Of a stretch of 50,149 nucleotides of DNA, positions 5,794 to 25,957 are shown one piece after another; the stretch's first letter is position 1; each line of letters starts with the position of its first letter. The DNA is from Magnetococcales bacterium. GTDB lineage: Bacteria; Pseudomonadota; Magnetococcia; Magnetococcales; Magnetaquicoccaceae. The stretch covers positions 1 to 50,149 of the forward strand of contig JAANAU010000027.1 in assembly GCA_011089965.1 (NCBI GenBank), read 5' to 3'. Under the pieces are notes generated by a model, which worked only from the letters and a program-made list of their open reading frames with translations, was not told where the DNA came from and made no database searches. A program made the position numbers and the translations under genes.

Positions 5794-7541
5794 ATCGATT
5801 CCGGAGCACTGACACCCAACAAATCCAACCCGTTGGCAATCACCCGTCCGGTCGCGCGGACGAGCGCCATGCGGGCACCACGCACCTGGGGATCCTCATC
5901 CAGAATGCGGAATTGATTATAATAGCCATGAAACGCTGCCGCCAGATCCGACAAATAGTAGGTCACCCGATGCGGCTCTCGACTCCAGGCCGCGCTTTCA
6001 ACCGTTTCCGGAAACAGTCCCAGCAGTCGGATCAGATCCAGCTCTTCCGGCGCTGTCAGCCGGGCCAGATCACCGGCCACATCTTCCAGTTCCCGTTCAC
6101 GCAGCTTCACCTCCAGCGAACAGACCCGCGCATGGGCATACTGCACATAAAACACCGGATTGTCGTTGGATTTGGACTTGGCCAGATCCAGATCGAAATC
6201 CAGACCAGCGCCTGAAGAGCGGGTCAGAAACCAGAAACGCACCGCATCCGCACCGGTCTCGTCCACCACGTCGCGCAAGGTGACAAAGGTGCCGGCCCGT
6301 TTGGACATGCGCACCTGTTTGCCGCCCTGGGTCAGATTGACCATCTGGGTCAGGACCACATCCAACAGCCCCTTGCGACCGGTCATGGCTTCCAGAGCTG
6401 CCTCCACCCGCTTGACATAACCCCCATGGTCTGCCCCCCACACATCAACCAGACGGGTATACCCGCGCTGGGCCTTGTCAAAATGGTAGGCGATATCGGC
6501 GGCAAAATAGGTGGGCGTGCCATCGGCCTTCAACAAGGGACGATCCGCATCATCCCCGAAGCGGGAAGCGCGAAACAAAAGCTGTTTCCGTCCATCCACC
6601 TCGTCGCTGTTCACCTCGCGTCCCTTGGGCGGTTCCAGAACCCCTTCATACAACCAACCCTGTTGGGACAGGTGCGACAATGCGCGCTCGATCCCTCCTT
6701 CCCGATGCAGACTCCGCTCCGAAAACCAGCGGTCAAAACGGATCTGCATCAACTCCAGATCTGCCCGGATCTCCTGCATCACCCAATCGATGGCAAAATC
6801 GATCACCGCCTCCGGGGGCCGTTCCAGAGTGGCACGGGTGCCATCACGCTCCGAAGCCGACAACCAGCGTTCGCCATCGCGTTCAATCAGGGCGCGGGCG
6901 ATTTCGGTCACATATTCGCCCGGATAATAGTCGGCTGGAGCCGAGGCTGGATATCCCAGACACTCCCGATATCGAAACAACACGGAACGCCCCAACACAT
7001 CAATCTGGGTGCCCGCGTCATTGATGTAATACTCCCGCTCCACCTGACAGCCGATGGCCGCAAACAGCCGGGCAATGGCATCACCGGTGACCGCTCCGCG
7101 ACCATGACCCACATGCATCGGACCTGTCGGGTTGGCCGACACGAACTCCACCAGAATCCGCTCCCCTGTGCCGACCTGCGTTTGCCCATACTTTGATCCA
7201 AGCTGCAAAATCTGCGGAATCAACTGGCGCAGCCTCTCCTCGGAGAGGTAAAAATTGAGAAATCCCGGTCCCGCAATGGTGCAGCGCACCCCGGAGGCTG
7301 GATCTGCGGCCATGGCATCCAGCAGACGTTGCGCCAGATCCCGTGGTTTCATGCCAGCCTGGCGCGCCAGGACCAACGCCGCATTGGTGGAAAAATCCCC
7401 ATGCGTTTTTTCCCGTGGACGCTCCACCTTGAACTCGGCGCTCCGTTCGGCAAACGCCCGGGCCAACTCTGGTGGCAACACCCCTTCTTGTGCCAGCCGT
7501 TCCAGGCCACGGATCACAAGGGCAATGACAATCTCCCGCAT
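5790..7541 (-). CDS. argS: Arginyl-tRNA synthetase
   Basis: A 583-residue class I aminoacyl-tRNA synthetase that charges tRNA-Arg. Class I signatures are present: HVGHGRGAV (HIGH motif, residues 143-146) after the typical VEFVSANPTGPMH, and VRMSKRAGTFVT (KMSK region). The N-terminal Add1 domain (residues 1-100, THGDFSTNAALVLA) and the DALR anticodon-binding end (RVTYYLSDLAAAFHGYYNQF) are both visible, so the protein is full length. It is followed by the overlapping SPOR gene. Confidence 0.97.
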   Translation of the reverse strand: MREIVIALVIRGLERLAQEGVLPPELARAFAERSAEFKVERPREKTHGDFSTNAALVLARQAGMKPRDLAQRLLDAMAADPASGVRCTIAGPGFLNFYLSEERLRQLIPQILQLGSKYGQTQVGTGERILVEFVSANPTGPMHVGHGRGAVTGDAIARLFAAIGCQVEREYYINDAGTQIDVLGRSVLFRYRECLGYPASAPADYYPGEYVTEIARALIERDGERWLSASERDGTRATLERPPEAVIDFAIDWVMQEIRADLELMQIRFDRWFSERSLHREGGIERALSHLSQQGWLYEGVLEPPKGREVNSDEVDGRKQLLFRASRFGDDADRPLLKADGTPTYFAADIAYHFDKAQRGYTRLVDVWGADHGGYVKRVEAALEAMTGRKGLLDVVLTQMVNLTQGGKQVRMSKRAGTFVTLRDVVDETGADAVRFWFLTRSSGAGLDFDLDLAKSKSNDNPVFYVQYAHARVCSLEVKLRERELEDVAGDLARLTAPEELDLIRLLGLFPETVESAAWSREPHRVTYYLSDLAAAFHGYYNQFRILDEDPQVRGARMALVRATGRVIANGLDLLGVSAPESM

Positions 7542-7647
7542 GACGACTCCCTCGCGCGGATTACGATACTTGAACAGTCTCTCAGTCTAACCGGATGGAG
7601 CTGGAAATGGCAACCGCTCAAAAGAGCCAAGATCAACCTGGGGGCAA

Positions 7648-9585
7648 TCAAAACACCAGATCGCTTTCCGGCAAGGTCTTGCGGATGGCGGCACGCACCA
7701 TTTCGTTGCCAAAGGAGAGGAAACGTCTGGCGCCACGCTCGGTCACCTTGAGCACTCCCGCTTGATACAGATGGGTGATGGCCGCCTCGGACGCCTGCAT
7801 GTCCCCATGCAGATCCCAGTCAAGATAGTGCTCCATGGGGATCTCGGCATCACCGGCAGCCAGGGCACGCAGCACCTTCCAGTCCACACCGGCCAGGGCA
7901 TGCAGCCGTTCCATCACCATGGCCAGCAGCGCGTTCGGAAACAGATCATGAGCAGCCATGGTGTCGTGCAGCAGTGAACGTTTCATATTGGCCAGATGGT
8001 TGGCGATCTCCACGGCAAACAGCGGCACGCCCCGACTCCACTCCAGCAACAGATCGATCTGCGCCGCATCCAGTCGTTTGGCCACCGGCATCTGTTTGAG
8101 CAGACGCAGGATCTCCCGGTTGGGCAGGCGCAACAACGAGATCACCCCCAGATCCGCATGATGGGTCAAGGTGCGCAGTTCCGCCTTGCGACCAGCGCCG
8201 ATCAGCCACACATGGCTTTTGGACAACCGGGTGGCCAGCGCAGGAAACAGCAGACGCGATACCGGATCCAGCCATTGGAGGTTGTCCAGAAACACCACCA
8301 CGGCCCCGGTCTGGAAGGAGGCCACCATACCCACCAGAAACCCCAACAGATCCTCATACAGAGGATCTCCCGCCTGGATACGCGGGGGAGGTTCCCGTTC
8401 CAAAGTCAGCGCCAGAAAGCGCTCTCCGCCCCGCTGGATCGGGGGCGGCAATTGACGGCACCACTGTTGGATCCGTTCCAGGCGTTCGGCACGGGTCAGG
8501 GTCGGCTCACATCCGGCCAGACTCTCCACAACCGGTACAAAAGGATGCAAAGGAATCATGCGCAGTACGGTATGACAGCTCCCCTGCAACCAGCGGGTAT
8601 CTTTGCGGCTGCGGGTTTCGATCTGCAACTGTCTGACCAGACGGGTCTCTCCAAAACCGGCTTCGCCGACCACCAGTGTGGATTCGGAACGACCCTGCAA
8701 CACCAGGCCCAGACGACGGTGCAGCTCATCCAGTTCCGTATCCCGCCCGACAAACGGCGCATCGCGACCGGCCTGATCCCCGCGATACCAGGCGTGGCTG
8801 GAAAGGGTGGCACATCCCGGAAACAACGCAGACGGCACACAGCGCCGCGCAAAAAACCGTTCCAGTTCATTCACCGCCTCCCCAGACAGATACAACCCAG
8901 GATGGATTTCGACCCGGTCCCCTTCCGGGGCATCCGAGGTGGTGAACTCACCTTGAATGGTGGTGGTCTGTCCATCGGTACAAGAGACCACCTGGACCGC
9001 ATAGATGGTGATCTCCAGGGGTATCGGCTCTTCCGGAATGTCCCCAGGAGTAGCGGTCAGTTGTTCCAGAATCAGGCCAGCACAACAAACGGCCCGCAAC
9101 GCATCATCCTCGCGCGCCCAACGCACGCCAAACAGCACCAGCGGACCTTCAATGCTCCCCTGCACCACCCCATCAAAACGCCGGGCCGCCTGGTCGCACA
9201 GTTCGCGCACCCGGCGATTCAAACGGTTGAAGCGGTCTCCGCCCAATCGATGCAACAACTCCCGCGCCGAACGCCAACGCAGCCGCACGCAATGCATCGA
9301 CTGCAAGGAGGCTGTCGAGATCGATTCTTTCTTTTCACTCCTGGGATGCACCAACTCTTCTTTGTGCAACGGGGAGAGAAAAAACGACTCCCCCTCGACC
9401 TGGGTGACCAGTTGAGCTGCCTTGGTACGATTATTGACTTTCAGGCGTCGAAAGATCTCCACCAGATGCTGCTTGACCGTACCATCGGAGATGTCCAGAC
9501 GCCGCGCCACCTCCTTGTTGCTGCATCCGGTCTGGATGAGCTTGAGGATTTCGATCTGACGCCGGGTCAGGGGCAAAGGATCCAT
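7648..9585 (-). CDS. LuxR-HTH / cyclase-like / AAA-ATPase regulator with altered Walker A
   Basis: A 645-residue regulator. Residues 5-62 form a LuxR-type helix-turn-helix (LTRRQIEILKLIQTGCSNKE, VARRLDISDGTVKQHLVEIF). Residues 98-240 resemble a degenerate nucleotide-cyclase homology domain, and from about 279 (FVGRDTELDELHRRL) there is a MalT/AAA-16-type ATPase with Walker B-like VVVFLDNLQWLD. The helix-turn-helix is at the N-terminus, opposite to MalT and LAL regulators. Walker A reads GEAGFGET at 307-314: the catalytic lysine is Glu 313 (GAG at 8649-8647), so ATP hydrolysis is doubtful. It follows the second HlyD gene by 26 bases and probably controls the secretion operon; its inducer is unknown. 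Confidence 0.8.
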   Translation of the reverse strand: MDPLPLTRRQIEILKLIQTGCSNKEVARRLDISDGTVKQHLVEIFRRLKVNNRTKAAQLVTQVEGESFFLSPLHKEELVHPRSEKKESISTASLQSMHCVRLRWRSARELLHRLGGDRFNRLNRRVRELCDQAARRFDGVVQGSIEGPLVLFGVRWAREDDALRAVCCAGLILEQLTATPGDIPEEPIPLEITIYAVQVVSCTDGQTTTIQGEFTTSDAPEGDRVEIHPGLYLSGEAVNELERFFARRCVPSALFPGCATLSSHAWYRGDQAGRDAPFVGRDTELDELHRRLGLVLQGRSESTLVVGEAGFGETRLVRQLQIETRSRKDTRWLQGSCHTVLRMIPLHPFVPVVESLAGCEPTLTRAERLERIQQWCRQLPPPIQRGGERFLALTLEREPPPRIQAGDPLYEDLLGFLVGMVASFQTGAVVVFLDNLQWLDPVSRLLFPALATRLSKSHVWLIGAGRKAELRTLTHHADLGVISLLRLPNREILRLLKQMPVAKRLDAAQIDLLLEWSRGVPLFAVEIANHLANMKRSLLHDTMAAHDLFPNALLAMVMERLHALAGVDWKVLRALAAGDAEIPMEHYLDWDLHGDMQASEAAITHLYQAGVLKVTERGARRFLSFGNEMVRAAIRKTLPESDLVF

Positions 9586-9611
9586 GATGCACTCCGCCAG
9601 TTGCTGCGCAT

Positions 9612-10973
9612 TCAGGAATGGACCGAGAAATGGCTCTTCAACGTCTGCCAGATCGTTTTCAAACCCTCCCAGAAAGAGATGGTGCGTTCCGGACGGGTCA
9701 ACGGATTCAGTATGTAAGACAAAATGGAACGGCTGCCCGAGATGATGTCGGCATCGGCCTTCATACCGGGCAGAATGGCCAATCCCGCCTTCGGGTCACC
9801 GATAAAGGGTTGATCGGGTTTGACGATCCCCTTGTAGGAGAAGGTACCCTCCTGGTTGCTCTGGGTAAAGGGGGAAACCGCAACCAGCCTGCCGCTCACG
9901 CCGCCAAAACGGCTGAAATCATAACTGCTCACCCGAATGGCCACGCTCTGTCCCGGGTGGACAAATCCGACATCCTTGGGAGTGATTTGCAACGCCAGTT
10001 GCAGATCATCGGCCAGGGGCACGATCTCCATCAGGACATCGCGCGAATTGAAGACCCCACCCACGGTCCGCACGCGGGTATCCTGCACCCGACCATGGAT
10101 CGGGGCCAGGACATCCAGATTGTGCCTCCGGTCCCGCAGCCGTTCCAGCAGGGTTTCCACCTGCATGATCTCGTTGCGGATCGTCCCAAGCTCCTGATTG
10201 GCCTGATTGGCCAACTCCTTTTCATAATGGGATCTCTTGGCCAACACCTCTTCCAGGGCCGACTGATTCTGTTGGATCTGCACACGCAAGGTTCTGCTTT
10301 TGCCGGTGCTGTCCAGATAGACCCGTTTGGACTCCAGTTGGGAAAGACGCGAAACCAGGTTCTTCTTGCCCAGATTCTCCTGCAACTCCATCAAATCGGC
10401 ATTGACTGCGACACTTTTTTCCATGTTGCGCAGATTCTGGGTTGCCAACTCGATTTCGGTACGTTTCTGCTGAATCTGGGTATCGAAGACCCAGAGGCTC
10501 TTCTGTCGCACCTGGTTCTGGGTCTCCAGAAAGGCGCGCTGCTCCCGCACCACATCGGAATATTTCTCTGAAATGGCAGAAAAATCAGGCTCAATCCCCT
10601 TCAGAAACGCATCCTGCCGGATGGCGCGCGCCTTCAGCCCCATCAACCGGGCTTCAGCCTGTTTCGCTTCGGCATCGGTCATGGCATTTTTCAGACGTAC
10701 CAACACGACCCCTTTGTCCACGATCTGACCATTGACCGCCAGAATCTCGGTCACGATCCCCCCTTCCGGGGGATAGACGCGCTGCACACCCTGGATGGGC
10801 AGAAACTCGCCCGAGGCCTTGACGGCTTCGTTGACATGGATCGTGGCCGTCAACCACAACAGAAACAGCGTGCCCAACAAGGTGACGGTCAAGATGGCCT
10901 TGACCTGCCAGGAGACCCCGGTCTCCTCCAGGATATGGGCCTCGCTGAGATGTCTGGAAAACCGGTTCAACAT
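9612..10973 (-). CDS. HlyD-family type I secretion adaptor (second copy)
   Basis: A membrane-fusion protein of about 453 residues. It has one N-terminal membrane anchor (VKAILTVTLLGTLFLLWLTA), the biotinyl-lipoyl-like start (GEFLPIQGVQRVYPPEGGIV), a long periplasmic coiled coil (about residues 90-290) and a beta-barrel end (PGQSVAIRVSSYDFSRFGG, LPGMKADADIISG). Such adaptors link an inner-membrane ABC exporter to an outer-membrane TolC channel. The ATG at 10973 is preferred because GAGG lies seven bases upstream; a GTG at 10991 is an alternative. It starts 30 bases after the ABC exporter gene. Two adaptors in one operon is unusual. Confidence 0.88.
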   Translation of the reverse strand: MLNRFSRHLSEAHILEETGVSWQVKAILTVTLLGTLFLLWLTATIHVNEAVKASGEFLPIQGVQRVYPPEGGIVTEILAVNGQIVDKGVVLVRLKNAMTDAEAKQAEARLMGLKARAIRQDAFLKGIEPDFSAISEKYSDVVREQRAFLETQNQVRQKSLWVFDTQIQQKRTEIELATQNLRNMEKSVAVNADLMELQENLGKKNLVSRLSQLESKRVYLDSTGKSRTLRVQIQQNQSALEEVLAKRSHYEKELANQANQELGTIRNEIMQVETLLERLRDRRHNLDVLAPIHGRVQDTRVRTVGGVFNSRDVLMEIVPLADDLQLALQITPKDVGFVHPGQSVAIRVSSYDFSRFGGVSGRLVAVSPFTQSNQEGTFSYKGIVKPDQPFIGDPKAGLAILPGMKADADIISGSRSILSYILNPLTRPERTISFWEGLKTIWQTLKSHFSVHS

Positions 10974-11002
10974 AAGCGGCCTCGCATCCACGGAATCCGG
11001 GG

Positions 11003-14000
11003 CTAGACAAAGGATTTGGGCAACAGTTTTTCCACTTCGGCTGGCGGGGCTGCTGCACGCAGATAGCCACGATCCAGATAAAGCACAAAATCCGCCATTT
11101 TAAGGTGACTGGGACGGTGGGTCACGATAAAGACCGTGGTCCGACCACGCATCTCCTCCACGGACTGCCGAAACAATGCCTCGCTTTTGGCATCCATATT
11201 GTTGGCCGGTTCATCGAACAGCATGATCGAGCAGGGTTTCAGCAACGCACGGGCCAAAGAGAGACGTTGCCGGAATCCGGCGGACAGTTGATCGCTGCGG
11301 CTGTCTTGCAGGCGGGTATCGAAACCTCTTGGCATCTGCATCACCTCTTCGAGCAATCCAGCCCGTTCGGCAGCCCGCTGCAACTCTTCGTCGCTGGCCT
11401 CCGGACGGACCAGACGCAGATTCTGGGCCACGGTTCCAAAGAAGATCTCGCACTGCTGTGGAAGGTAGCCGATGGCATGCCGCAATTGCAAGGCATTGAT
11501 CTGACGGATATCATTATTATCAATCAAGACACTGCCTGCCTGGGGATCGTACAGACCAAGGATCAATTTGATCAAGGTGGACTTGCCCGAACCATTGGCA
11601 CCGATCACCGCCACCACCGATCCCGGGGGCACCCGGAAAGAGACACCCACCAAAGCGGGTTCGGCATCATTGGTGTAACGGAACGACACCCGGGCAAAAG
11701 CGATTTCGCCTTTGAAATCCTTGCGGGCCGCATGAACCTGACCATATCCCCGTTCCACCTTGAGATCCATCAACCGGTCAAGCTGGGTGATGCTGTTGGC
11801 GATTCCGGCAAATTTGTTGGCACCGAGAAAAAAGGTTTGCAAGGGGCCGAGGATGCGCCAGGTCAAGAGCATGGAGGCAATGACCGCACCGGTATTCTGG
11901 ACATCTGCCGAGGCCACGGTGCGCGCCGTATCGCTCATCACCCCAACTCCGGCCATCATGGTCAGCAGACGGGCCAGGGTGGTCATATGGTTGGAGATCA
12001 TGTTCAAACGGAAGGTGGCCAGGGTGGCCTTGCCGGACAGATCGCGGAAACGGTCGAACCAGATCTCTTCGGAGTGGGTGCCCTGAATGGTCTGGATCCG
12101 ACTCAAGGCTTCGGTCAGAAAGGATTGCAACTGTGAGTTGTACTGTCCGGCCAACTGGGTACGCCGCTCGATCACCGGCATGAGCGCCAGGGCCACCACC
12201 ACCATGGCGACAATCAAAAGCACCATCACCCCGATGACATGGGGACTGATGAAACTTAACACCACCAGAAACAGCAAGGTGGTGGGAATATCATACAACA
12301 GCATGGCCAACGGACCGGTCAAGATCTCGCGCACCACCTCCAGGGAGCGAATCCGCGACACCTGATTGCCGGCAGAAACCTGTTCGGTCAGACTCGAAGG
12401 CAGACCCAGAATCCGTTGCAGGATGACACTGCTCAAGGCACGTTCCAGTTTGGTGCCGATATAGGCCAACAGATGCAACCGGTGGATCCGCAACACCCCA
12501 TCCATCACCAATGCCAGGATCGTACCCACCAGCATCACCATGCCGGTGGCAATCGAACCGGTCGGGATCACGCGGTCATACACCACCATGACATAGATCG
12601 GCATGGTCGAGGCCATGAGGTTGCCGATGATGGTGATCCCCATGAGATTCCACACCAGGGCGCGAAAACGGGCCAGTTGGCTGCGTACCCAGCTCTGTTG
12701 CAGGGTCACGGTCTCCTGTTGCGAAGAGAAGAAAAAGGCGGTTCCCCGACCATGCAAAACCCCCTCACTCTCCTGGCCGGTCGCCCCATCCATGAAACGC
12801 AAACCATCCGGTTTTTTCTCCAGCACCACCACCACGCGACCCGAATGGAACACAAACAGGAACGGAGCCAGGCGGCCATCCACATGCACGATCTCACCGC
12901 GCTCCATCTTGTGTTTGAAACTCAGATTGGCCATGATGTTGCACAATCCGGTCAAGTCGAGCTGCTCCATCAGATGGGGGATCGACTCGGCCAGTTGACG
13001 GCCAGTCCCGCGCCACTCCAACCCCTCCAACAGGCTGCGCAAACACCAGATGAACGTATTGGGATTCGGCATGCGTTCCAGGTAGACGTGCCAGTCCGCA
13101 AACTGCAAACCATGCGCTGCATAGCTGTCACCAGGCAGGAGATGATCCTCCTCCTCGTCTCCTCCCCGCGCCGAATCTGCACGGCCAGAATCCCCATTTT
13201 TGACAGAATCCGTCACCTCGGTCGTGGCCGGAGGCGGTGGCGCGGCATTCAAGGCATCCATGAAATGATTCAACAACTCCAAACCACCATCCCGGAAGCG
13301 GTAACACCGATCCGTAATGCGCAACAAAGAGGGGCGTTCCGAAACCAGGATCAGGGTGCATTTGCCCTTGAGTTGCTCCAGATAATTGCGCAACAGAATA
13401 TCGCCCGCCGAGTCGATGGCGGTATTGGCCTCATCGAACAGCAGAATCTTCGGCTGTTTGACCAGGATGCGAATGATGGCAATCCGTTGAATCACACCGG
13501 CCGGCAGGATGTCCGACACCCCTTCTCCGATCTGGGTCTGATACCCTTTGGGCATGCGTGCCACAAGCGCATCCAGACCCAATTCAGCGGCAATGGTCAG
13601 AGCCAGTTCACTGCGGGAGTCATCGAACAGGGTCAGATTTTCCAACAATGTGGCATTGAACAACACACCGGTTTGCGGTACATAACCGATGGCACTATGC
13701 AACTGATCGGACAAGGTGATACGATTCATGCCATCGATCAGCACCTCGCCCTCAGTCGGCAAGACCGCTCCGGAGATCAATTTCAACAGGGTGGTCTTGC
13801 CCTCACCGCTTTTCCCGATCAATCCGATGCATTCGCCCGGACGCACGTCGAGAGAAAGATTCTTCAACACCACCTGCTCGCCCCCCACCTTGCAGGTGAT
13901 GTTCTTGAGTGCCAAGGCTCCATCGATTTCGGTCACATCACCCGTTTCGCTGGCCATCACGCGCTGCGGCAATTGAAACAGTTCGAGAATCTGCTGTTTG

Positions 14001-14911
14001 GCCAACCGGGTCGATTGCAAACGGGTCCAACCGCGCACCAGAGTCTGCAACGGTTGCAGGATGCGTCCCGCCAGCATGGTGCAGGCCGCCAGACCGCCGG
14101 TGGTCATCTCCCCCTGGATGACCGCTATCGCCCCCAATCCAACGATGATGGCGGTCGTGACCTGACCGGAAAACGAGGAGAAGACCGGAATGATGCCACC
14201 CCGGAAAATGATGTCGTAGGTGTAACGCAGACTGGAGAGTTGCAACAATTCATAGCGTCGCAGCATCAAAGGTTCCATGGCCAGGGATTTGACGGCATGG
14301 ATGCGACTTAATATTTCTGTGATGAAACTGAAGCGTCGTTGCGTCACCCGCATGTCGGTATCGAGGATGGTGCGCAGCTTTTCACCCTGAACCGTGGAAA
14401 AGATCGTGATCAAGGTCACGGTCACAATCGGCACCACCACCAGAATGCCGCCGATCTTGTAAATCATGAACAAAAACAGCACCAGAAACGGCAAATCGAA
14501 CAGAGCGATCATCGCCTGCCCAGAGTAGAGTTCGCCAATCGTGTGGATGGCGTTCATCTGTTCGATGTATTTGGCCCCATCGACCCGTTCAAACTCTCTG
14601 GGTTCGGCGAACAGCAGGCGTCTGAGCAGACGGCAACTCCCTCGATGGATGAAACGGGCACCAATCCAACCCACCACATGAGAACGCAAGGTTTGAATGG
14701 CACTCTCCACCATCAAGGCGATCAGCACGGTGATCACCAGCATGGAGAGGGTATTCAACGCCTGATTGGGAATGATACGGTTGAACACCTGCATCAACAG
14801 CAACGGCACCAACAATCCCAACAGGTTGATCAGCAGGGAGGTGACACCCAGAACCACTATCGTTCCGAATTTCCCAGCCCCTTCAGGCAATCCGCGAATA
14901 TCTTTCGGCAT
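11003..14911 (-). CDS. Tandem-fused type I secretion ABC exporter (two TMD-NBD units)
   Basis: A 1302-residue protein with two complete exporter halves. Unit 1: membrane domain about 15-300; Walker A GKSGEGKTT (366-374), Walker B ILLFDEANTAID; but the signature reads LPAGVIQR and the switch histidine is replaced (VSERPS, 523-528). A linker of about 50 residues follows. Residues about 610-735 resemble a degenerate, inactive C39-like domain of RTX exporters. Unit 2: membrane domain about 745-1045; Walker A GANGSGKST (1104-1112), signature LSAGFRQR (1209-1216), Walker B IMLFDEPANNMD, intact VTHRPS. One ATP site is therefore probably degenerate. Start at 14911 is supported by AGGGA five bases upstream; the longer frame beginning at 15157 lies within the preceding gene. 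Protein export across both membranes is inferred from the family and flanking HlyD genes. Confidence 0.9.
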   Translation of the reverse strand: MPKDIRGLPEGAGKFGTIVVLGVTSLLINLLGLLVPLLLMQVFNRIIPNQALNTLSMLVITVLIALMVESAIQTLRSHVVGWIGARFIHRGSCRLLRRLLFAEPREFERVDGAKYIEQMNAIHTIGELYSGQAMIALFDLPFLVLFLFMIYKIGGILVVVPIVTVTLITIFSTVQGEKLRTILDTDMRVTQRRFSFITEILSRIHAVKSLAMEPLMLRRYELLQLSSLRYTYDIIFRGGIIPVFSSFSGQVTTAIIVGLGAIAVIQGEMTTGGLAACTMLAGRILQPLQTLVRGWTRLQSTRLAKQQILELFQLPQRVMASETGDVTEIDGALALKNITCKVGGEQVVLKNLSLDVRPGECIGLIGKSGEGKTTLLKLISGAVLPTEGEVLIDGMNRITLSDQLHSAIGYVPQTGVLFNATLLENLTLFDDSRSELALTIAAELGLDALVARMPKGYQTQIGEGVSDILPAGVIQRIAIIRILVKQPKILLFDEANTAIDSAGDILLRNYLEQLKGKCTLILVSERPSLLRITDRCYRFRDGGLELLNHFMDALNAAPPPPATTEVTDSVKNGDSGRADSARGGDEEEDHLLPGDSYAAHGLQFADWHVYLERMPNPNTFIWCLRSLLEGLEWRGTGRQLAESIPHLMEQLDLTGLCNIMANLSFKHKMERGEIVHVDGRLAPFLFVFHSGRVVVVLEKKPDGLRFMDGATGQESEGVLHGRGTAFFFSSQQETVTLQQSWVRSQLARFRALVWNLMGITIIGNLMASTMPIYVMVVYDRVIPTGSIATGMVMLVGTILALVMDGVLRIHRLHLLAYIGTKLERALSSVILQRILGLPSSLTEQVSAGNQVSRIRSLEVVREILTGPLAMLLYDIPTTLLFLVVLSFISPHVIGVMVLLIVAMVVVALALMPVIERRTQLAGQYNSQLQSFLTEALSRIQTIQGTHSEEIWFDRFRDLSGKATLATFRLNMISNHMTTLARLLTMMAGVGVMSDTARTVASADVQNTGAVIASMLLTWRILGPLQTFFLGANKFAGIANSITQLDRLMDLKVERGYGQVHAARKDFKGEIAFARVSFRYTNDAEPALVGVSFRVPPGSVVAVIGANGSGKSTLIKLILGLYDPQAGSVLIDNNDIRQINALQLRHAIGYLPQQCEIFFGTVAQNLRLVRPEASDEELQRAAERAGLLEEVMQMPRGFDTRLQDSRSDQLSAGFRQRLSLARALLKPCSIMLFDEPANNMDAKSEALFRQSVEEMRGRTTVFIVTHRPSHLKMADFVLYLDRGYLRAAAPPAEVEKLLPKSFV

Positions 14912-14960
14912 GGGATCCCTAAACGACCACGGCCATCCGCCATTGGCAGAGGGCTTCTGA

Positions 14961-16286
14961 TTAATGTTCCTTGAACGCATCATGGATCGTATTGAACACC
15001 GGTTTCCAGAGAATTTCGATGACCCGACGCTTGTCAAGGGTGATATCGACCTGAGCAAGCATGCCAGGCAAAATGGGATTCTTGCCAGGTGTCTCTCCAA
15101 GATATCCTTTTTCCAGGGTAATAATCCCTTTATAATAGGCTTGTTTTCTCTCATCAAGCAGCGTACTGGGGGAAACCGACGTCAAGGTGCCGATGACCCG
15201 CCCGAAATAGACAAAAGAGTAACTGCTCAACTTGATGGCCACCTGCGAGCCGATCCGCACCCGGCCCACATCCTGGGGCCAGATATGGACTTCGATCTGC
15301 ATGCGGTCTTCCACGGGTACGATCTTGGCCAACACCCCTCCTGGCGGCACCACTTTGGAGGTGATGTTCACCTCCTGGGCAATTCCGGTCACCGGTGTAC
15401 GGATCTCCAGGCGAGCCACCCGATCCTCCAGCTCGACCCGTTGGGCACGCACCTGGACCAACTCATTGGTGATGCTGCTCAACTCGTCACTGGCCGCACG
15501 GCGGGCATCGGCATCCAGCTGCTTGAGACGACTCGATGTTTCCGCCAGGGCACCCTGAATGTTTTCCATCTGCTTGACGACCCGCTTGACCTCTCCTTTG
15601 GCGGTTTCATTGGACTTCAGGGTCTCCAGATAGACAATCCGCGACACCGCTTTCTTTTCCAGCAAGGTCTTGCGAATCTCCAGCATATGGTTCGTCAGGG
15701 TGACCTGCCCCCGCGCCGTCTCCAGGGCAGCCTGAAGGGATTGCAACTCGGAGCGGCGCTGTTCGATCTGCGCACGAATGATGTTTTTATTGTTTTCAAG
15801 TGTGATCACCTGCTGATGGAATACCTGGCGCTGCCCCTCGGCCAACCCCTGAAACCGGGCCGGAATGGTACAAAAATCCGGCTCTTCCTCCTGGGCAAAG
15901 GCTTTGGCGCGTATGGCACGAGCCTCCAGACCCGCGATGCGCACCTCAAGCTGTTCCAGTTCTGCCTTGACCTGAGTCCCATCCATGCGCAACAGCACAT
16001 CTCCGGCAGTGACAAGGGTATTGTCACGGATCAACACTTCATCGATAATACCCCCCTCCAGATGTTGAATCGTATGGACCGATCCGGTGGGCATCACCTG
16101 ACCCGGGGCATGGGCCACCTCTTGCAAAGGGGCCAGAAAGGCCCAGACCAGCAAGGGCAGAAAGGCCAACAGGACGATCTTCCAGGTATCGACAATCAAA
16201 GCTGGAGTGGCCACATCCCGATCATTGCCCATGATCTCCAATGGCCGGATCTGGGTAGGAATCGGTTTTTTTGGGAAAATCTTCAT
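14961..16286 (-). CDS. HlyD-family type I secretion adaptor (first copy)
   Basis: A 441-residue membrane-fusion protein: one membrane segment (WKIVLLAFLPLLVWAFLAPL, about 35-55), the lipoyl-like motif GSVHTIQHLEGGIIDEVLIR, a long coiled coil (about 105-275) and the C-terminal barrel with LPGMLAQVDITLDKR, typical of PrtE/HlyD-type adaptors. It is the first gene of the operon and lies 49 bases before the ABC exporter gene. It shares only family-level similarity with the second adaptor downstream, so the two are not a recent duplication. No strong ribosome binding site precedes the ATG. Confidence 0.92.
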   Translation of the reverse strand: MKIFPKKPIPTQIRPLEIMGNDRDVATPALIVDTWKIVLLAFLPLLVWAFLAPLQEVAHAPGQVMPTGSVHTIQHLEGGIIDEVLIRDNTLVTAGDVLLRMDGTQVKAELEQLEVRIAGLEARAIRAKAFAQEEEPDFCTIPARFQGLAEGQRQVFHQQVITLENNKNIIRAQIEQRRSELQSLQAALETARGQVTLTNHMLEIRKTLLEKKAVSRIVYLETLKSNETAKGEVKRVVKQMENIQGALAETSSRLKQLDADARRAASDELSSITNELVQVRAQRVELEDRVARLEIRTPVTGIAQEVNITSKVVPPGGVLAKIVPVEDRMQIEVHIWPQDVGRVRIGSQVAIKLSSYSFVYFGRVIGTLTSVSPSTLLDERKQAYYKGIITLEKGYLGETPGKNPILPGMLAQVDITLDKRRVIEILWKPVFNTIHDAFKEH

Positions 16287-16494
16287 ACCCGGATGCTTCT
16301 ACCTGGCGGCAAACGAAAATAACGAAACCTACTGAATATTCACACACATACCATTTTCAACCTATATTGATATCGGCTCAAGCAGGATGCAAGGTTAAGA
16401 CCATTTTTTGACTATATTTTGTTCATAAAAGCCATTCCAATATGTGATCATAAACAGATCCGACACACAAAACGCTCAGACCATCGGAAACCTC
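16287..16494. promoter_or_regulatory. Divergent promoter region, secretion operon versus kinase gene
   Basis: This AT-rich 200-base region separates the minus-strand secretion operon and the plus-strand kinase gene and must hold both promoters. On the minus strand TTGAAA followed after 16 bases by TATTCA (within about 16331-16362) is a weak sigma-70 candidate. No clear operator repeat was found. Confidence 0.35.
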
Positions 16495-18378
16495 ATGCCA
16501 CGCAAGATTGATCTCACGGAAGAACAGGCCGGGCTGATGATTCAGCATTTTCAACCGCAGATGCGCATGGTGCGCCTGTTGGGGGCCGGAAGTTTCGGTC
16601 AGGTCTTTCTGATCGAAGATGATGTGTGCCGTGTGGCCGTCAAAATCATCCCCTTGCAACTGCGCAACGAGGAGAATCCGGAACAAAACCACGAATGGCA
16701 ACAGCTCACCACCCAATGGGATCGTCTCAACCATGCCAGTCTGGTACGGATTCGCAGTTTCACAGAACATGTTGCCGACGACCCCAACGATCCCATCGAG
16801 CGGTATGGTTTGATCTTCATGGACTACTGGCCGATTGATCTCCACGATTACATCAAGCGGCTGCTGCGCGAGGGATTGCTGACACCAGTGCGCAAACGAA
16901 CCTTGCTGAACAACCTGGCCAATCTGCTCTGCCGGTTGCTGGCAGATACAGGTCTGATCGTGACCGATCTGAAACTGGAAAACGTCCTGGTGGCAGCACG
17001 CGATCCAGGCCCGATGCAACTGGCGCTGATCGATCTGGGCGGCGTGTGGGAGGCCAGGCTGGCCGACTACTATCGGGTGATCACCACCGATTATTACATG
17101 GCCCCGGAGCTGCATACCCACTCGATCACCCGCATTGACGACAAAATCCTGCAATTCAGTTTTGGCCTGATCGGTTACTACATTCTGGAAGGGCGCTGGC
17201 CAGTGGCGGATTACGACTACCTGCAACCGTTGCTCATCAAGCTGCGCGCCCAGGGGAATCTGAACTGGTCAGAAGAGGTGCAGACCACCATGCCAGGGAG
17301 CGTCGCCATCATCGAACGCTGCCTCCAGGAAGAGCGTGCCCACCGTTTTCCCGATCTTTTCGCTCTGGTGGCGGCCTTGCAGGCCGATGAAGCGCGCTGG
17401 GAAAAAGAACGCAATCTCCAGACTCAAACCCTCATCCAGGCGCACCCCCCGCCCAGACCACCGACACGCAAAAAAGGCCAACCCACCCTTTGGCACGAAC
17501 CATTGACCGGCATGGAACTGTTCTGGATTCCATCCGGAGGATTTGAAATGGGACAATCTCCGGAAGAGACCAAACAGTTGCAATGGGTCAACGACGAGGC
17601 CGCCTTTGAAAAGTGGTATGCACGGGAACTCCCCCGCCGCCGGGTGATGCTGGATGGCTTCTGGATGGGACGTTTTCCGGTGACCAAAGCACAATTTGCC
17701 CGGTTTGTCGCCGAAACGCTCCATCTGACCGACACGGAGCGGATCCAGTTTGCCGCCCGCTACAACAAACGGCAGCACAAACAGCTCCACTGGTACACCT
17801 GGAAGAAACCCAAATACCACCAGGAAGATAACCATCCCGTGATTCACGTCAGTTGGTTTGACGCCAAACGGTTTGCCGCCTGGCTGTCGGACCGGACCGG
17901 ACTGACCTTTGATCTGCCCTCCGAGGCGCAGTGGGAGTATGCCTGTCATGGGGGTGGCAGCAGCCCGTACCACTTCGGGGCCACCATCTCCACAACCCAG
18001 GCCAATTATGACGGCAGCACGACTTATGGCAGTGGACACACCGGCACCGTGCGCAAGGGGACCATGCCCTGCGGACAGTTCCCGGCCAACCACTATGGTC
18101 TCCACGACATGCACGGCAATGTGTGGGAGTGGTGCGAAGATCTGTATGACACCCAGTTCTACACCACACCGACTGCCCGGCTGCGCAATCCGGTCAATGG
18201 CGGCCTGATCGGCTATCGCATCAAACGGGGCGGTTCCTGGCGCTCACCAGCCGCCATGCTGCGCGCAGCCTATCGGGGCGGCACCTATCCGGATATCGGC
18301 AAGGATGATATCGGATTTCGCCTGATCATGAAACCTGCCCTTCAGATGGCAGGCCCGGATACCCAACAGAAAAAGTGA
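16495..18378 (+). CDS. Serine/threonine kinase fused to a formylglycine-generating-enzyme-like domain
   Basis: About 627 residues. Residues 25-310 are a Hanks-type kinase: glycine loop GAGSFGQVF (30-38), AVK with Lys 50, catalytic loop VTDLKLENVLV (Asp 158, Asn 163; the HRD histidine is replaced), IDLGG in place of DFG (Asp 180) and APE (203-205). After a proline-rich linker, residues about 340-615 form an FGE-sulfatase/SUMF1-like domain (FEMGQSPEE, DLPSEAQWEYAC, GNVWEWCEDLY, IKRGGSWRSPAAMLRAAYRG). The cysteine pair needed to make formylglycine is absent from the last motif, so this is more likely a ligand-binding or sensory fold. Start ATG 16495 is preferred over an in-frame GTG at 16444. 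No membrane segment is visible. Divergent from the secretion operon. Confidence 0.88.
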   Translation: MPRKIDLTEEQAGLMIQHFQPQMRMVRLLGAGSFGQVFLIEDDVCRVAVKIIPLQLRNEENPEQNHEWQQLTTQWDRLNHASLVRIRSFTEHVADDPNDPIERYGLIFMDYWPIDLHDYIKRLLREGLLTPVRKRTLLNNLANLLCRLLADTGLIVTDLKLENVLVAARDPGPMQLALIDLGGVWEARLADYYRVITTDYYMAPELHTHSITRIDDKILQFSFGLIGYYILEGRWPVADYDYLQPLLIKLRAQGNLNWSEEVQTTMPGSVAIIERCLQEERAHRFPDLFALVAALQADEARWEKERNLQTQTLIQAHPPPRPPTRKKGQPTLWHEPLTGMELFWIPSGGFEMGQSPEETKQLQWVNDEAAFEKWYARELPRRRVMLDGFWMGRFPVTKAQFARFVAETLHLTDTERIQFAARYNKRQHKQLHWYTWKKPKYHQEDNHPVIHVSWFDAKRFAAWLSDRTGLTFDLPSEAQWEYACHGGGSSPYHFGATISTTQANYDGSTTYGSGHTGTVRKGTMPCGQFPANHYGLHDMHGNVWEWCEDLYDTQFYTTPTARLRNPVNGGLIGYRIKRGGSWRSPAAMLRAAYRGGTYPDIGKDDIGFRLIMKPALQMAGPDTQQKK

Positions 18379-18457: not shown

Positions 18458-19645
18458 ATGGAACACACGTTTCAATCACCCAGGCCCATCCCGGATTTCT
18501 TGCGCAAAGATGTGGTTTCCAAGTTGGCCTATGTGGATGAATCCATTGCACAGGTCACCCTCGATGACCATGACACCCTGCATTGCCATCTGCGCACGGA
18601 ACTGACCCCGGATCAACGACAGATCCTGGATGGAAAAATGCAACAGGTGATTGATCTGCTGGTCACCTCCACCCGTCAACCCATGATCAAAATTATCGAA
18701 AACCATCTGGATCGACCGGTTCCCGGCAGAACCGATCCCATGCCGCAACTTCTGGAAACCGGTCAGCTTGTCCACACCGGCGACGGCATGTTTTCCTTGG
18801 GACCGCTGGTTGCCGGGCTGTGCCGTTATTTTGAAAACAGATTTTTCCAGCTCGCACTCTCTCAGGGGGCTGGGATCCACCGTTTCCCCTCCATGATTCC
18901 CGCCTCATTCCTGGAGAAAATCCAATATTTCAAAAATTTTCCTCATTCCCTGAGTTTTGCCGCCCATCTGCGCACAGATCTGAACACCATCGAACGCTTT
19001 GCCACGGAAACCCGCTGTCAGGATGGCGTCCTGCATCTTCCCAAGGACAGTTTTTCCGGAATCCGTCACCTGCTCGCCCCCACGGTATGCCATAATTATT
19101 ATCTTTTTCTGGCCAATCGAACCCTGCCTCATCCTCTTGCCATGGCCACAGCGCTTGGAACCTGCTACCGATACGAGTCCATCAATATGCACTCTTTGGA
19201 GAGGCTGTGGAACTTCACCATGTGGGAAGTGATCTTTGTCGGGACCGCCAACCTGGTCAAGGAGGCTCTGCTGCGTGTTGGTCAGGAGGCCAGTTTGCTC
19301 CTTCAGGAATGGGGGCTGGCCTACCGACTGGAGAATGCCAACGATCCCTTCTTCATCCGTGAGTTTGGCATGCAGACCGGCTTCCAGAACATCTATGACC
19401 TCAAATATGAATATCGGGCACGACTGCCGTTCAAGGAGGGAACGCTTGCCGTTGGTTCACGCAATTACCACATGGACTTCTTTGGCCGCCAGATGCAGAT
19501 CCAGCTGCCCGATCACACCACAGCCCACTCCGGCTGCATTGGTTTCGGATTGGAACGGCTGGCCTTTGCCTTTCTTGCCCAATATGGTATCGATCCGAAT
19601 CAGTGGCCGGAATCGATTCGTACCGCTCTGTTCCCCACCCCCTGA
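18458..19645 (+). CDS. Amino acid:[carrier protein] ligase (atypical SerRS-like)
   Basis: A 395-residue class II aminoacyl-tRNA synthetase-like protein. It lacks the N-terminal tRNA-binding coiled coil of seryl-tRNA synthetase and resembles the enzymes that activate glycine or alanine and load it onto a carrier protein. Class II features are present: the motif 2 region TCYRYESINMHSLERLWNFT and motif 3 GCIGFGLERLAFAFLAQYG. Cys 211, Glu 257 and Cys 360 have the spacing of the zinc-binding Cys/Glu/Cys site of these ligases. The gene for a carrier protein follows 26 bases downstream, the classic arrangement. Start ATG 18458 is preceded by GAGG; an upstream TTG is ignored. Amino acid specificity cannot be read directly. 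Confidence 0.9.
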   Translation: MEHTFQSPRPIPDFLRKDVVSKLAYVDESIAQVTLDDHDTLHCHLRTELTPDQRQILDGKMQQVIDLLVTSTRQPMIKIIENHLDRPVPGRTDPMPQLLETGQLVHTGDGMFSLGPLVAGLCRYFENRFFQLALSQGAGIHRFPSMIPASFLEKIQYFKNFPHSLSFAAHLRTDLNTIERFATETRCQDGVLHLPKDSFSGIRHLLAPTVCHNYYLFLANRTLPHPLAMATALGTCYRYESINMHSLERLWNFTMWEVIFVGTANLVKEALLRVGQEASLLLQEWGLAYRLENANDPFFIREFGMQTGFQNIYDLKYEYRARLPFKEGTLAVGSRNYHMDFFGRQMQIQLPDHTTAHSGCIGFGLERLAFAFLAQYGIDPNQWPESIRTALFPTP

Positions 19646-19671
19646 CCCCTACCTGTCCGGAGTATCGCCTC

Positions 19672-19923
19672 ATGTCCCCGGAAACGATTTTGGAACGGAT
19701 CGGCCCGATCCTGCGTGCCACCTTTCAGGATCCCAATCTGAAAATCGATCTCCATTTGACCATGGATGATGTCCCGGCATGGGACAGTATTGGTCACATG
19801 ACCCTGATAGCTGCCGTGGAGCAGGAGTTCCGGTTTCAATGCTCCCTGGAAGAGTTGGTGCATGTGCGCAGCATTGGTGATCTGGTCAACCTGGTGGCGG
19901 ACAAAAGCCCCGACGGGTCATAA
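19672..19923 (+). CDS. Acyl/aminoacyl carrier protein
   Basis: An 83-residue carrier protein. The phosphopantetheine attachment serine lies in PAWDSIGHMTLIAAVEQEF (DSIGH in place of the usual DSL), and the following acidic helix is typical. It directly follows the aminoacyl carrier ligase gene and is its likely acceptor. Start ATG 19672 has GGAG upstream. Its last six bases overlap the convergent GNAT-like gene. A phosphopantetheinyl transferase is not encoded in the window and must be supplied elsewhere. Confidence 0.9.
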   Translation: MSPETILERIGPILRATFQDPNLKIDLHLTMDDVPAWDSIGHMTLIAAVEQEFRFQCSLEELVHVRSIGDLVNLVADKSPDGS

Positions 19924-21042
19924 TCCGGCATCCCCCATGATTCCGCTGACATAGACGGTATCCAACTCTGGAGGCGCACATCCGGTGGCAGGTACGTAAT
20001 ATCCGGTCATCCGCTCTGCCAAAGGACGGATCCAACCCACCCCCTGCAATGCCCTGGCCAGATCCCTGTGATAATGGGGAATCCGCACCACATGCACCCC
20101 CATCTGACTGGCGCAATCCACGGCATAGCCCATCAATGGCAGCAACTCACCCCCATCCATCCTGGCTCCCCACACATCCACAGCCACCAAAGCATCGGTA
20201 TCCGGCCAATGTCCCGTCCGTTCCCGCCGAAACAAGGCAAATGCGCACAGACGATCCTGATACGTATGTGTCAACAATAAATACTCTTTCTTGTTGGGAT
20301 TGCGCTGCAAGAACCACTCAAGCACACGCATGGCGCGCACCTCGGTCAACGCATATCGATTCGCACTCTGTTCCCACAACACATCAAACTCCGGCCCAAT
20401 GGCAGGATTGCATGACAGGGAACCAGCCTGCCTGCGCGCACGACGCAAGAGCCGCATCTGTTGTCCATAATCTTTGAGCGCCGTGACCACCCCAACAAAC
20501 GGCCCCCCCTTCCTGTCAGACGGCTCGGACCAGTGACCGCTCATATGATATATATCTTTGATTCCCCTCCAGAAGGGGGTGCCGACAGGAAGCGTCAACA
20601 GAACGGTCTCCATGCGCACACCAGCGGTGAAATGGATAAAAGGAACACGCTGCAAAATCACCTCCACATCCGGAGTCGGCGTGGTGTTCATGATCGGATA
20701 GTGCTTGACATGGCCCATCAAATGAAAAAACAGGCCAAGACTTCTGGAACGCCACTCCGGCAACACGCGCCAACAGGACATGTTCGCAGCCACCATGGCG
20801 TTCCCTTGCCATGCAACCATTTTGGGAATCAGGGCAAACACCCCGCCAATCGTGTCACCTGTCATCAACAGACAACCCCGTGGAAACCCTTCGGCAAAGG
20901 CCGGATTCTGTTCCCACCAGAATTGAAAACGTTGCAACCAAAAGGAAACCGGACGTTGTTCACCGGGGAAAGAGGCGCAAAACAGGGCCAGAGCCGGATA
21001 GTCCGCCACCGTCAGATCACGCAAAACCGTTTGTTGCGACAC
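19918..21042 (-). CDS. GNAT-like acyl/aminoacyltransferase family protein
   Basis: A 374-residue protein that appears to hold two GNAT-type folds: N-terminal LRDLTVADYPALALFCASFP and a central GGVFALIPKMVAW strand, then from about residue 225 a second one (LEWFLQRNPNKKEYLL, CAFALFRRERTG). It starts at GTG 21042 with GAGGTGAAG before it. It converges on the carrier-protein gene with a six-base overlap. Double GNAT folds also occur in FemABX-type aminoacyltransferases, so it could use the aminoacyl-carrier protein as donor; that is inference from context only. Substrate unknown. Confidence 0.55.
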   Translation of the reverse strand: MSQQTVLRDLTVADYPALALFCASFPGEQRPVSFWLQRFQFWWEQNPAFAEGFPRGCLLMTGDTIGGVFALIPKMVAWQGNAMVAANMSCWRVLPEWRSRSLGLFFHLMGHVKHYPIMNTTPTPDVEVILQRVPFIHFTAGVRMETVLLTLPVGTPFWRGIKDIYHMSGHWSEPSDRKGGPFVGVVTALKDYGQQMRLLRRARRQAGSLSCNPAIGPEFDVLWEQSANRYALTEVRAMRVLEWFLQRNPNKKEYLLLTHTYQDRLCAFALFRRERTGHWPDTDALVAVDVWGARMDGGELLPLMGYAVDCASQMGVHVVRIPHYHRDLARALQGVGWIRPLAERMTGYYVPATGCAPPELDTVYVSGIMGDAGL

Positions 21043-23864: not shown

Positions 23865-24362
23865 ATGTACATCGGTCGCGCAGTCGATTGGGAACAGGTG
23901 GTACTGGCCTCGTGGATCCGCTCTGCGGGTGGCAAGCTGCTCCCCAAAACCGAGATGTGGCGACCCCTGCCCACCGGGGTCTGCTGGTTTGAATGCCGCA
24001 TGGAACCTGCCGACATCCCAAAATGTTTTGTCATCGGCTCCCGCGACTGGCGTGAGCTGTTTGGCTGCACCCATCTGTCCACAATTGCAGCCAACTCGTT
24101 CCAAGGTGAAGACAACTATTCACACCATTCCCGCATCCATGCCATGAAAAGAATTCTGGCTTCAGGCGACTTTTTTGAACCCCTCATTCTGACCGCCTTT
24201 TCCGGTGAAGGACCGTTTGTCATCATCGATGGCAATCATCGCGCCATCGCCTTGTTGCAGCTCAATCTGCTGGCCGGACAGAGGCTCTTTGTCGGCTTCC
24301 ACCCACGCATGGGGCAAGATTTCTTCTGGTTTCAACGTTCGATCCTCCTGCCAGGCATGTGA
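23865..24362 (+). CDS. ParB-like small protein
   Basis: A 165-residue protein whose centre has the order found in ParB/sulfiredoxin-fold nucleotide-binding domains: an ILASGDFFEPLIL strand-loop, then FVIIDGNHRAIALLQLN, where DGNHRA corresponds to the ParB DGHHR motif. There is no helix-turn-helix, so it is not a partition protein. It overlaps the next gene by four bases (GTGA), indicating joint translation with the glycosyltransferase-methyltransferase. A regulatory or small-substrate kinase-like role is possible; no function is assigned. Confidence 0.55.
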   Translation: MYIGRAVDWEQVVLASWIRSAGGKLLPKTEMWRPLPTGVCWFECRMEPADIPKCFVIGSRDWRELFGCTHLSTIAANSFQGEDNYSHHSRIHAMKRILASGDFFEPLILTAFSGEGPFVIIDGNHRAIALLQLNLLAGQRLFVGFHPRMGQDFFWFQRSILLPGM

Positions 24363-25957
24363 GAACAGAAACGATGTCGGCACACCCGGACTCCTTGGCA
24401 ACCATTTTCGTCTCCATCGCCAGTTACCGCGACAGCGACGGTCCCAACACCCTGCGCGATCTCTTTGACAAGGCGCGCCATCCGGAACGGGTATGCGCCG
24501 GAGTGCTGTGGCAGATCCTTCCGACTGAAGATGATCCAGCGATCTATACGCGCCTGCCTGATCTCCGGGCTGCCCAGGTGCGTGATCGCACCATCCACGT
24601 CAGCGACAGTCTCGGTGCCTGCTGGGCACGCCACAGGATTCAGGAGGAATTTTATCAAAACGAGGATTATTACCTGCAAATCGACAGCCACACCCGCTTT
24701 GATCCCGAGTGGGACGTGCAACTGATCGCCATGCTGCACGCCTGCCCCTCGCCCAAACCCATACTCTCCACCCACCCCAACCGCTTTGAACCCCCTGACA
24801 CCCGTCTGGCCAAAGGCTACCCCCATTTACGCGCCAAGAAGTTCAACCGGGATCAGATCCTGATTCCGCAAGGGGAGTATATTGCGCTGGATGCGCGCCC
24901 TCCTGCACCCCGTCCATCGGCTTTTGTCGGAGGAGGACTGCTGTTTGGCCCCGGTTCCATGGTGCATGAGGTGCCATATGATCCCCGTCTCTACTTTCAT
25001 GGGGAGGAGATCACCCTGTCGGTTCGGCTGTGGACGCACGGTTATGACCTCTACAGCCCGAACGACATCATATTGTATCATGACTATACCAACAAAACCC
25101 GCCCCCGCCACTGGGATGACCACAAGGTCGATTGGACGAAACTGCAAAAGATCTCGGTGGCACGATTGGAACATCTGCTGGAGATTCGCCCCAGCACCGA
25201 TCCAGAGGTGTTGCAGGAGATCGAACGGTTCGGACTGGGCCAGGTACGCACTTTGGCCGAATATGAAGCCTATGCCGATGTGGATCTGCGCCGCCGCGTG
25301 ATCGGCACCCGGGCCTCGGATGGCCGTTTTCCCGCCCATCCGCCCACCAACGGCCCTTCGGTGGAGAGGCAACGACTCTTTACCAAAATCTACCTGGAGA
25401 ACCAATGGGGATCCGGGGAGACCCGCAGCGGTTCCGGTTCCATGGTGCAGGGCACGGAAGAGATGCGCACGGCCTTGCGGGATGCCATGCGTCTGTTGGG
25501 AATCCGCAGCGTGGTCGATGCCGGTTGCGGAGATCTGAACTGGATTTCATTAATTTCCGAAGAGTGGGATCTGTATCTGGGATTTGATGTGGTGCGGGAG
25601 CTGATCGCCCACAACCGCACCCTCTACGGCCAACGCCCGAACCATTTTTTCAACGTGGCCGACATCTGCCAGGTGCGTCTGCCACGCGCGGATGCGCTGT
25701 TGTGTCGCAACACCCTGACCCATCTGCCCAACGAGGAGATCCTTCAGGCACTGCGGCTGTTCAAACGCAGCGAATGCCGCCACCTGATCGCCACGACCTT
25801 TCCCGGCGTGGAGAATGAAAAAAACAAGATCGGCCAGTGGCACCGCACCAATCTGACAGCCCCGCCCTTTTCACTCCCGGAACCCATCATGCTGCTCCCG
25901 GATGGCAAAAGCCGCCACGAACGGTATCTGGGGATATGGCGTCTGGCAGAGTGGTGA
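24359..25957 (+). CDS. GlcNAc-transferase-like (GT60/PF11397) fused to SAM methyltransferase
   Basis: A 532-residue two-domain enzyme. Residues about 14-300 fit the GlcNAc-transferase family related to Skp1 glycosyltransferase: IFVSIASYRDSDGPNTLRDL, DYYLQIDSHTRFDPEWD (DxH metal site), FVGGGLLFGP and FHGEEITLSVRLWTHGYDLY. From about residue 365 a class I SAM methyltransferase follows (VVDAGCGDLNWIS motif I, LYLGFDVVRELI, RADALLCRNTLTHLPN). Transfer of a GlcNAc-like sugar and methylation of the same product would follow from the fusion; the acceptor is unknown. Start GTG 24359 gives a GTGA overlap with the previous gene; ATG 24374 is an alternative. Confidence 0.8.
   Translation: MRTETMSAHPDSLATIFVSIASYRDSDGPNTLRDLFDKARHPERVCAGVLWQILPTEDDPAIYTRLPDLRAAQVRDRTIHVSDSLGACWARHRIQEEFYQNEDYYLQIDSHTRFDPEWDVQLIAMLHACPSPKPILSTHPNRFEPPDTRLAKGYPHLRAKKFNRDQILIPQGEYIALDARPPAPRPSAFVGGGLLFGPGSMVHEVPYDPRLYFHGEEITLSVRLWTHGYDLYSPNDIILYHDYTNKTRPRHWDDHKVDWTKLQKISVARLEHLLEIRPSTDPEVLQEIERFGLGQVRTLAEYEAYADVDLRRRVIGTRASDGRFPAHPPTNGPSVERQRLFTKIYLENQWGSGETRSGSGSMVQGTEEMRTALRDAMRLLGIRSVVDAGCGDLNWISLISEEWDLYLGFDVVRELIAHNRTLYGQRPNHFFNVADICQVRLPRADALLCRNTLTHLPNEEILQALRLFKRSECRHLIATTFPGVENEKNKIGQWHRTNLTAPPFSLPEPIMLLPDGKSRHERYLGIWRLAEW

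Follow-up and report, generated by a model that had tools for sequence, protein, structure and literature searches.

A SerRS-like ligase, a carrier protein and a predicted double-GNAT protein in Magnetococcales suggest a tRNA-independent aminoacylation module

Gene content and layout of the locus

The stretch of DNA analyzed here (hereafter, the window) comprises 50,149 nucleotides and corresponds to a single contig (G000:C70) of the Magnetococcales host genome G000, that of a magnetotactic bacterium. Three neighboring genes in the window encode a SerRS-like amino acid:[carrier protein] (aa:CP) ligase, a carrier protein (CP), and a protein predicted to adopt a double-GNAT fold (Table 1). An earlier note on this DNA had described the ligase with its Cys/Glu/Cys triad and the adjacent CP, and profile matches and alignment bear out both their coordinates and their identities. 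It had also presented the three genes as a module: the genes are indeed adjacent, but the opposite strand of the third had gone unmentioned. The CP and GNAT genes are convergent, i.e., arranged tail-to-tail with 3′ ends overlapping by 6 bp, and an identical 6-bp overlap is found in two other genomes (G001 and G002). Since the GNAT gene is encoded on the minus strand and points toward the CP gene, the ligase, CP, and GNAT genes do not form one operon.

Table 1 Coordinates of the three neighboring genes in the window
Feature	Position	Strand	Evidence
SerRS-like amino acid:[carrier protein] ligase, 395 aa	18458..19645	+	NF005479, PDB 3mey, profile alignment
Carrier protein (CP), 83 aa, phosphopantetheine Ser39 in WDSIGHM	19672..19923	+	PP-binding PF00550
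Double-GNAT protein (predicted), 374 aa, proposed CP-dependent aminoacyl transferase	19918..21042	-	AlphaFold, Foldseek, VIA

Upstream, the window encodes a protein kinase fused to an FGE-sulfatase-like domain (16444–18378, + strand), which ends ~80 bp before the ligase gene, and a 1384-aa frame with two tandem ABC exporter modules (11003–15157, − strand) flanked by HlyD-type adaptors (9612–10991 and 14961–16286). In G010, the kinase-FGE gene and the GNAT frame share 4 bp. We considered these T1SS and kinase-FGE genes as partners of the trio and rejected them: the shared gene order is confined to the genus, and in G002 and G010 the ligase-CP-GNAT block has the opposite orientation with respect to these genes.

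A divergent aa:CP ligase next to a carrier protein

The ligase matches the NCBIfam amino acid--[ACP] ligase profile (NF005479) at 8.7e-45 and 153 bits, below the 357-bit curated cut-off, and all of its Magnetococcales relatives score similarly (146–175 bits against the same equivalog cut-off of 357). Pfam tRNA-synt_2b matches barely above cut-off, the NCBIfam profile of archaeal type-2 SerRS matches as well, and the solved ligase Bll0957 (PDB 3mey) matches at 4e-29. Profile alignment yielded 4e-36 for Bll0957 and 9e-26 for M. kandleri SerRS, and placed C211, E257, and C360 of the window ligase on conserved Cys, Glu, and Cys residues of Bll0957, which we take to be its zinc ligands. This triad is kept in all 31 aligned ligases (14 from Magnetococcales and 17 classical aa:CP ligases). 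An N-terminal extension of ~85 residues is found in 14/14 Magnetococcales ligases and in 0/17 classical ones. Against the SerRS profile, the alignment begins at ligase residue 18, equivalent to archaeal position 125. Most of the tRNA-binding N-terminal domain of SerRS is absent, and the ~85 residues left partly align to the end of the archaeal domain. Judging by where this alignment starts, the extension may be a remnant of an archaeal-type SerRS N-terminal domain.

The AlphaFold model of the ligase is mediocre (pLDDT 66), and the solved structures it resembles most are those of archaeal type-2 SerRS (3w3s and 3pzc). These matches, together with the alignment of the extension to the end of the archaeal domain, would fit a second seryl-tRNA synthetase charging tRNA. 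We consider this highly improbable, as the ligase lacks most of the N-terminal domain, has a CP gene as its neighbor, and carries the NYH motif of aa:CP ligases rather than the NVH of M. kandleri SerRS. In addition, a canonical SerRS is encoded elsewhere in the host genome (510 bits), which also rules out the window ligase as the housekeeping enzyme. Given its sub-cut-off NF005479 score, its N-terminal extension, and the canonical SerRS elsewhere, we treat the window ligase as a divergent variant of the aa:CP ligases rather than as a plain member. With the classical ligases (Bll0957/NF005479) it shares the SerRS-like class II core, the zinc triad, the adjacent CP, and NYH, but it is only ~29% identical to them, falls short in score (153 vs 357 bits), carries the ~85 extra residues and, unlike them, has no acyl-CoA-dehydrogenase-like gene or DUF1839 recognized next door. 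For the SerRS-like ligases, including the Bll0957 type (Mocibob et al. 2010, as cited in PMC9437257), the role of amino acid loading remains unknown (PMC9437257).

The CP matches PP-binding (PF00550) over the cut-off, at 22.4 bits and 1.5e-4. Its Ser39 is invariant across 13 aligned carriers, i.e., the window CP and 12 from related loci. Of the 15 ligase loci in Magnetococcales, 13 have a CP adjacent to the ligase (the window, where it is directly downstream, and 12 others).

The third protein is predicted to adopt a double-GNAT fold

Searches of Pfam, NCBIfam, and PDB sequences returned no match for the third protein. When modeled by AlphaFold (six sequences), it showed two GNAT-like units, with pLDDT 78 and pTM 0.75. 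The top fold matches (Foldseek, VIA) were Eis-like acetyltransferases (Eis2) and N-myristoyltransferases (NMT), with Z between 17 and 20; the best was a solved GNAT acetyltransferase (4my0), with Z 19.6 over 282 residues. The double-GNAT fold that the earlier note had proposed, and that it had left to structure prediction to refute, is thus well supported as a model, and on its basis an ordinary single-domain acetyltransferase was rejected. Likeness to the Eis-like and NMT double GNATs lies in the overall predicted fold, with 8–14% sequence identity. A relative in G041 matches Acetyltransf_9 at 4e-4, under the cut-off, and the window protein matches no GNAT profile. Fem/MprF-type GNATs are absent among the fold matches listed, which we do not count against kinship.

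Eis and NMT, the nearest folds with solved structures, work with acyl-CoA rather than aminoacyl-CP, which counts against an aminoacyl transfer from the CP and in favor of its chief rival, in which the CP-bound amino acid would be the acceptor: the GNAT would acylate its alpha-amine from acyl-CoA, giving an N-acylated building block for other enzymes. This N-acylation predicts the same gene linkage as aminoacyl transfer, and an additional single GNAT lies beside the CP in G041 and G037, with Pfam matches for the G041 copy. An R-x-x-G-x-G pyrophosphate loop is common, if not universal, among GNATs. This loop is degraded to RSRSL in the window protein and to RxxSM or similar in most ligase-linked GNATs, which argues weakly against CoA use and hence against N-acylation, with the loop partly kept as RxNGL in some relatives. 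Also against N-acylation, no downstream consumer was recognized among the neighbors of the module in the window. On this evidence, we regard N-acylation as unlikely.

GNAT genes accompany carrier proteins across Magnetococcales

Among 48 Magnetococcales genomes searched, the ligase was detected in 14, a full-length GNAT in 21, and both in 13 (Fisher P 1e-5, a value uncorrected for relatedness that overstates the co-occurrence, since the genomes are related). A CP was found ≤5 kb from 12 of 20 evaluable GNAT copies, where 0.21 would be expected, and for ~6 of 10 after a rough collapse by lineage. The convergent block of ligase and CP facing the GNAT is intact in seven genomes (G000, G001, G002, G008, G010, G044, and G047), with the GNAT gene of G008 cut by the contig end. 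The block of G041 includes an extra single GNAT between the CP and the double GNAT. In G037, the two halves of the block sit at the ends of two contigs, and the leftovers of 64 and 98 bp sum to about the ~162-bp gap seen in G041, so that a contig break is likely. The extra single-domain GNATs are located at L069 9239–9793 (before the double GNAT of G041) and L070 5870–6430 (after the CP of G037).

Other genomes depart from this layout. The GNAT lies ~15 kb from the ligase-CP pair in G029 and on a separate contig in G045; G039 and G042 carry the ligase far from both other genes, but keep GNAT and CP as neighbors on the same strand, ~100–150 bp apart. In G003, KASIII-like and MBOAT genes come after the ligase-CP pair, and a search for the GNAT in this genome found none. 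Eight genomes encode a full-length GNAT with no ligase detected, and no CP was found near the GNAT in G021, G036, and for one G035 copy. Three shorter GNAT relatives adjoin CPs as well (G033:C23, G037:C294, and G041:C103).

The ligase-CP-GNAT trio is thus real, and the comparison across genomes that the earlier note had named as able to refute its proposal instead showed a GNAT that tends to be present together with the ligase-CP pair and, for the most part, directly next to it. The alternative, i.e., chance or inherited synteny, with the GNAT an independent acetyltransferase that merely neighbors the ligase and CP, would be in keeping with the eight ligase-free genomes and with the convergent orientation, which precludes co-transcription of the GNAT with the ligase and CP in the window and to this extent counts against a module. 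We consider it very unlikely: the arrangement conserved between genomes and the CP-adjacency count place the trio beyond chance, GNAT-CP pairs also occur away from the ligase, and the association recurs, with a classical ligase, in another genus (see below).

Other amino acid loaders beside the same GNAT family

In G005, from the same genus as the window, the GNAT gene stands in a row with genes for an amino-acid adenylation domain (TIGR01733, 362 bits, above cut-off), a CP, and a KamA-like radical SAM protein. KamA-like radical SAM proteins are kin of amino acid 2,3-aminomutases, and this row, at L135 (G005:C26) 5945–10174, may indicate a beta-amino acid route. AMP-binding enzymes lie beside the GNAT in G028 and G032, together with a small CP-like protein that has no Pfam match. 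The frames at L074 6146–6454 and L137 2497–2835 display such a CP-like pattern (SPFKSxQ, VELLV) with no Pfam match, alongside an AMP-binding enzyme and a GNAT. After the second GNAT copy in G035 come genes for a CP and a ketosynthase. Also in G035, one protein adjoining a GNAT copy combines FHA, GGDEF, and TIR matches (L073 5796–7130, + strand).

Overall, the CP is the constant partner of the GNAT, even where the SerRS-like ligase is missing. The presence of two unrelated amino acid loaders beside one GNAT family provides the strongest argument that the GNAT handles a CP-bound amino acid, and fits a GNAT acting on the residue that the CP carries. Some neighbors would also suit a different CP chemistry (e.g., decarboxylation or transacylation) or a GNAT acting on another CP-bound group, with the ligase supplying one of several substrates. 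The G035 copy beside a ketosynthase and CP points this way, as do the FadD/MenE-like AMP-binding neighbors, whose substrate is not necessarily an amino acid. That such chemistry is possible is illustrated by a malonyl-ACP decarboxylase in Proteobacteria, in connection with which a GNAT is named in PMC8666670. However, the ligase-linked copies and the G005 copy with its adenylation domain and aminomutase-like neighbor both indicate amino acids, and we therefore judge this alternative to be improbable. The gene block, together with the family-wide pairing of GNAT and CP with two unrelated loaders, offers a concrete enzyme to test.

Homologues outside the order and the relation to DUF1839

Outside the order, 251 other Pseudomonadota genomes were sampled, of which 22 encode ligases (mostly classical), 9 match the GNAT profile weakly, and 8 show both. 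Most of these ligase/GNAT-profile co-occurrences were unlinked. In genus g38 (G073, G130, and G166), a distant GNAT homologue lies directly 3′ of a classical aa:CP ligase; it aligns to the first GNAT unit with an hhalign probability of 96.7% (E 4e-10; alignment including G130 and G166).

Where g38 has the GNAT homologue, other classical ligase clusters have DUF1839, a papain-like family (PMC10318531). For a conserved uncharacterized gene of these clusters, a role in transferring the amino acid onto the amine of a sugar at the cell surface had been predicted (PMC2922099, note added in proof) and, judging by its position in the cluster, this gene (example Atu2574) is probably DUF1839. The DUF1839-type partner resembles the GNAT of the window and of g38 in accompanying an aa:CP ligase and in its predicted transfer of an amino acid to a sugar amine, but differs in its papain-like fold. 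The two may be alternative transferases. We also considered DUF1839 as a relative of the GNAT and rejected this, given its papain-like assignment (PMC10318531) and a forced joint alignment without convincing similarity.

A proposed pathway and its likeliest acceptor

Taken together, we favor as moderately probable a two-stage, tRNA-independent aminoacylation module, in which an amino acid would pass to the CP and from there, via the GNAT, to an amine acceptor. The SerRS-like ligase would activate a small amino acid as an adenylate (Gly, Ala, or Ser, by analogy) and attach it to the CP through a thioester with the phosphopantetheine arm. From the CP, the double-GNAT protein would then pick up the aminoacyl group and hand it to the amine. 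This proposal is built on the zinc triad, the CP serine, the predicted double-GNAT fold, the GNAT-CP linkage, and the exchangeable loaders, from which we infer the identity of the amino acid, the CP as donor, the acceptor, the direction of transfer, and catalysis itself. The earlier note had likewise seen in the GNAT a candidate for passing on the loaded amino acid; the CP linkage and the predicted fold strengthen this role, and the transfer, the acceptor, and the amino acid stay at the level of that proposal. If the module is right, an enzyme derived from protein synthesis would feed amino acids into other molecules without tRNA.

The likeliest acceptor would be a surface-glycan amino sugar whose amine a deacetylase has freed, since in some relatives the module or the GNAT is found together with polysaccharide deacetylases: their genes precede the ligase-CP pair in G041 and G037 and lie upstream of the GNAT in G033. 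A freed amino-sugar amine would be in line with the 2010 prediction (PMC2922099), and is weakly supported, as the deacetylase occurs in few genomes of one family and none lies in the window. A glycan acceptor pathway within the window was considered and dropped: only a GlcNAc-type glycosyltransferase fused to a methyltransferase (24359–25957, + strand) was found, and no conserved glycan cluster.

Transfer of aminoacyl groups from a CP, without tRNA, is already known from Dlt D-alanylation and from AlmEFG glycylation in Vibrio (PMC3783018). A tRNA-independent pathway, as the earlier note had suggested, therefore fits the context of the locus without being new as a principle; what is new is this combination of parts, i.e., a Dlt/Alm-like logic with other components. 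Dlt and AlmEFG share an adenylating loader, a carrier protein, and a dedicated transferase to an envelope polymer, but their loader is an NRPS-type A domain and the window loader is SerRS-like. Their transferases are an MBOAT (DltB) and an LPLAT (AlmG), whereas the candidate in the window is a predicted double GNAT, and the locus is thus not a member of Dlt/Alm. Conversely, the Fem ligases and MprF/VlmA rely on a GNAT fold for aminoacyl transfer to amines or other nucleophiles (PMC2922099), yet from aminoacyl-tRNA rather than from the aminoacyl-CP proposed here. Among the open-access papers searched, we found none pairing an aa:CP ligase with a GNAT.

More broadly, and only tentatively, the double-GNAT family, widespread in Magnetococcales, could be a general CP-dependent aminoacyl transferase that is served by SerRS-like or NRPS-type loaders and acts on a surface glycan amine. 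If so, it would supply the second half that is still missing from the aa:CP ligase pathway, and would be a CP-using counterpart of the tRNA-using Fem/MprF GNATs.

Two loci display another possible fate of the loaded amino acid. A ligase, a CP, a KASIII-like gene, and an MBOAT gene are found together at L041 763–3462 (G003), and a ligase, a CP, a KASIII-like gene, and a DUF1574-like gene at L071 5011–9010 (G037).
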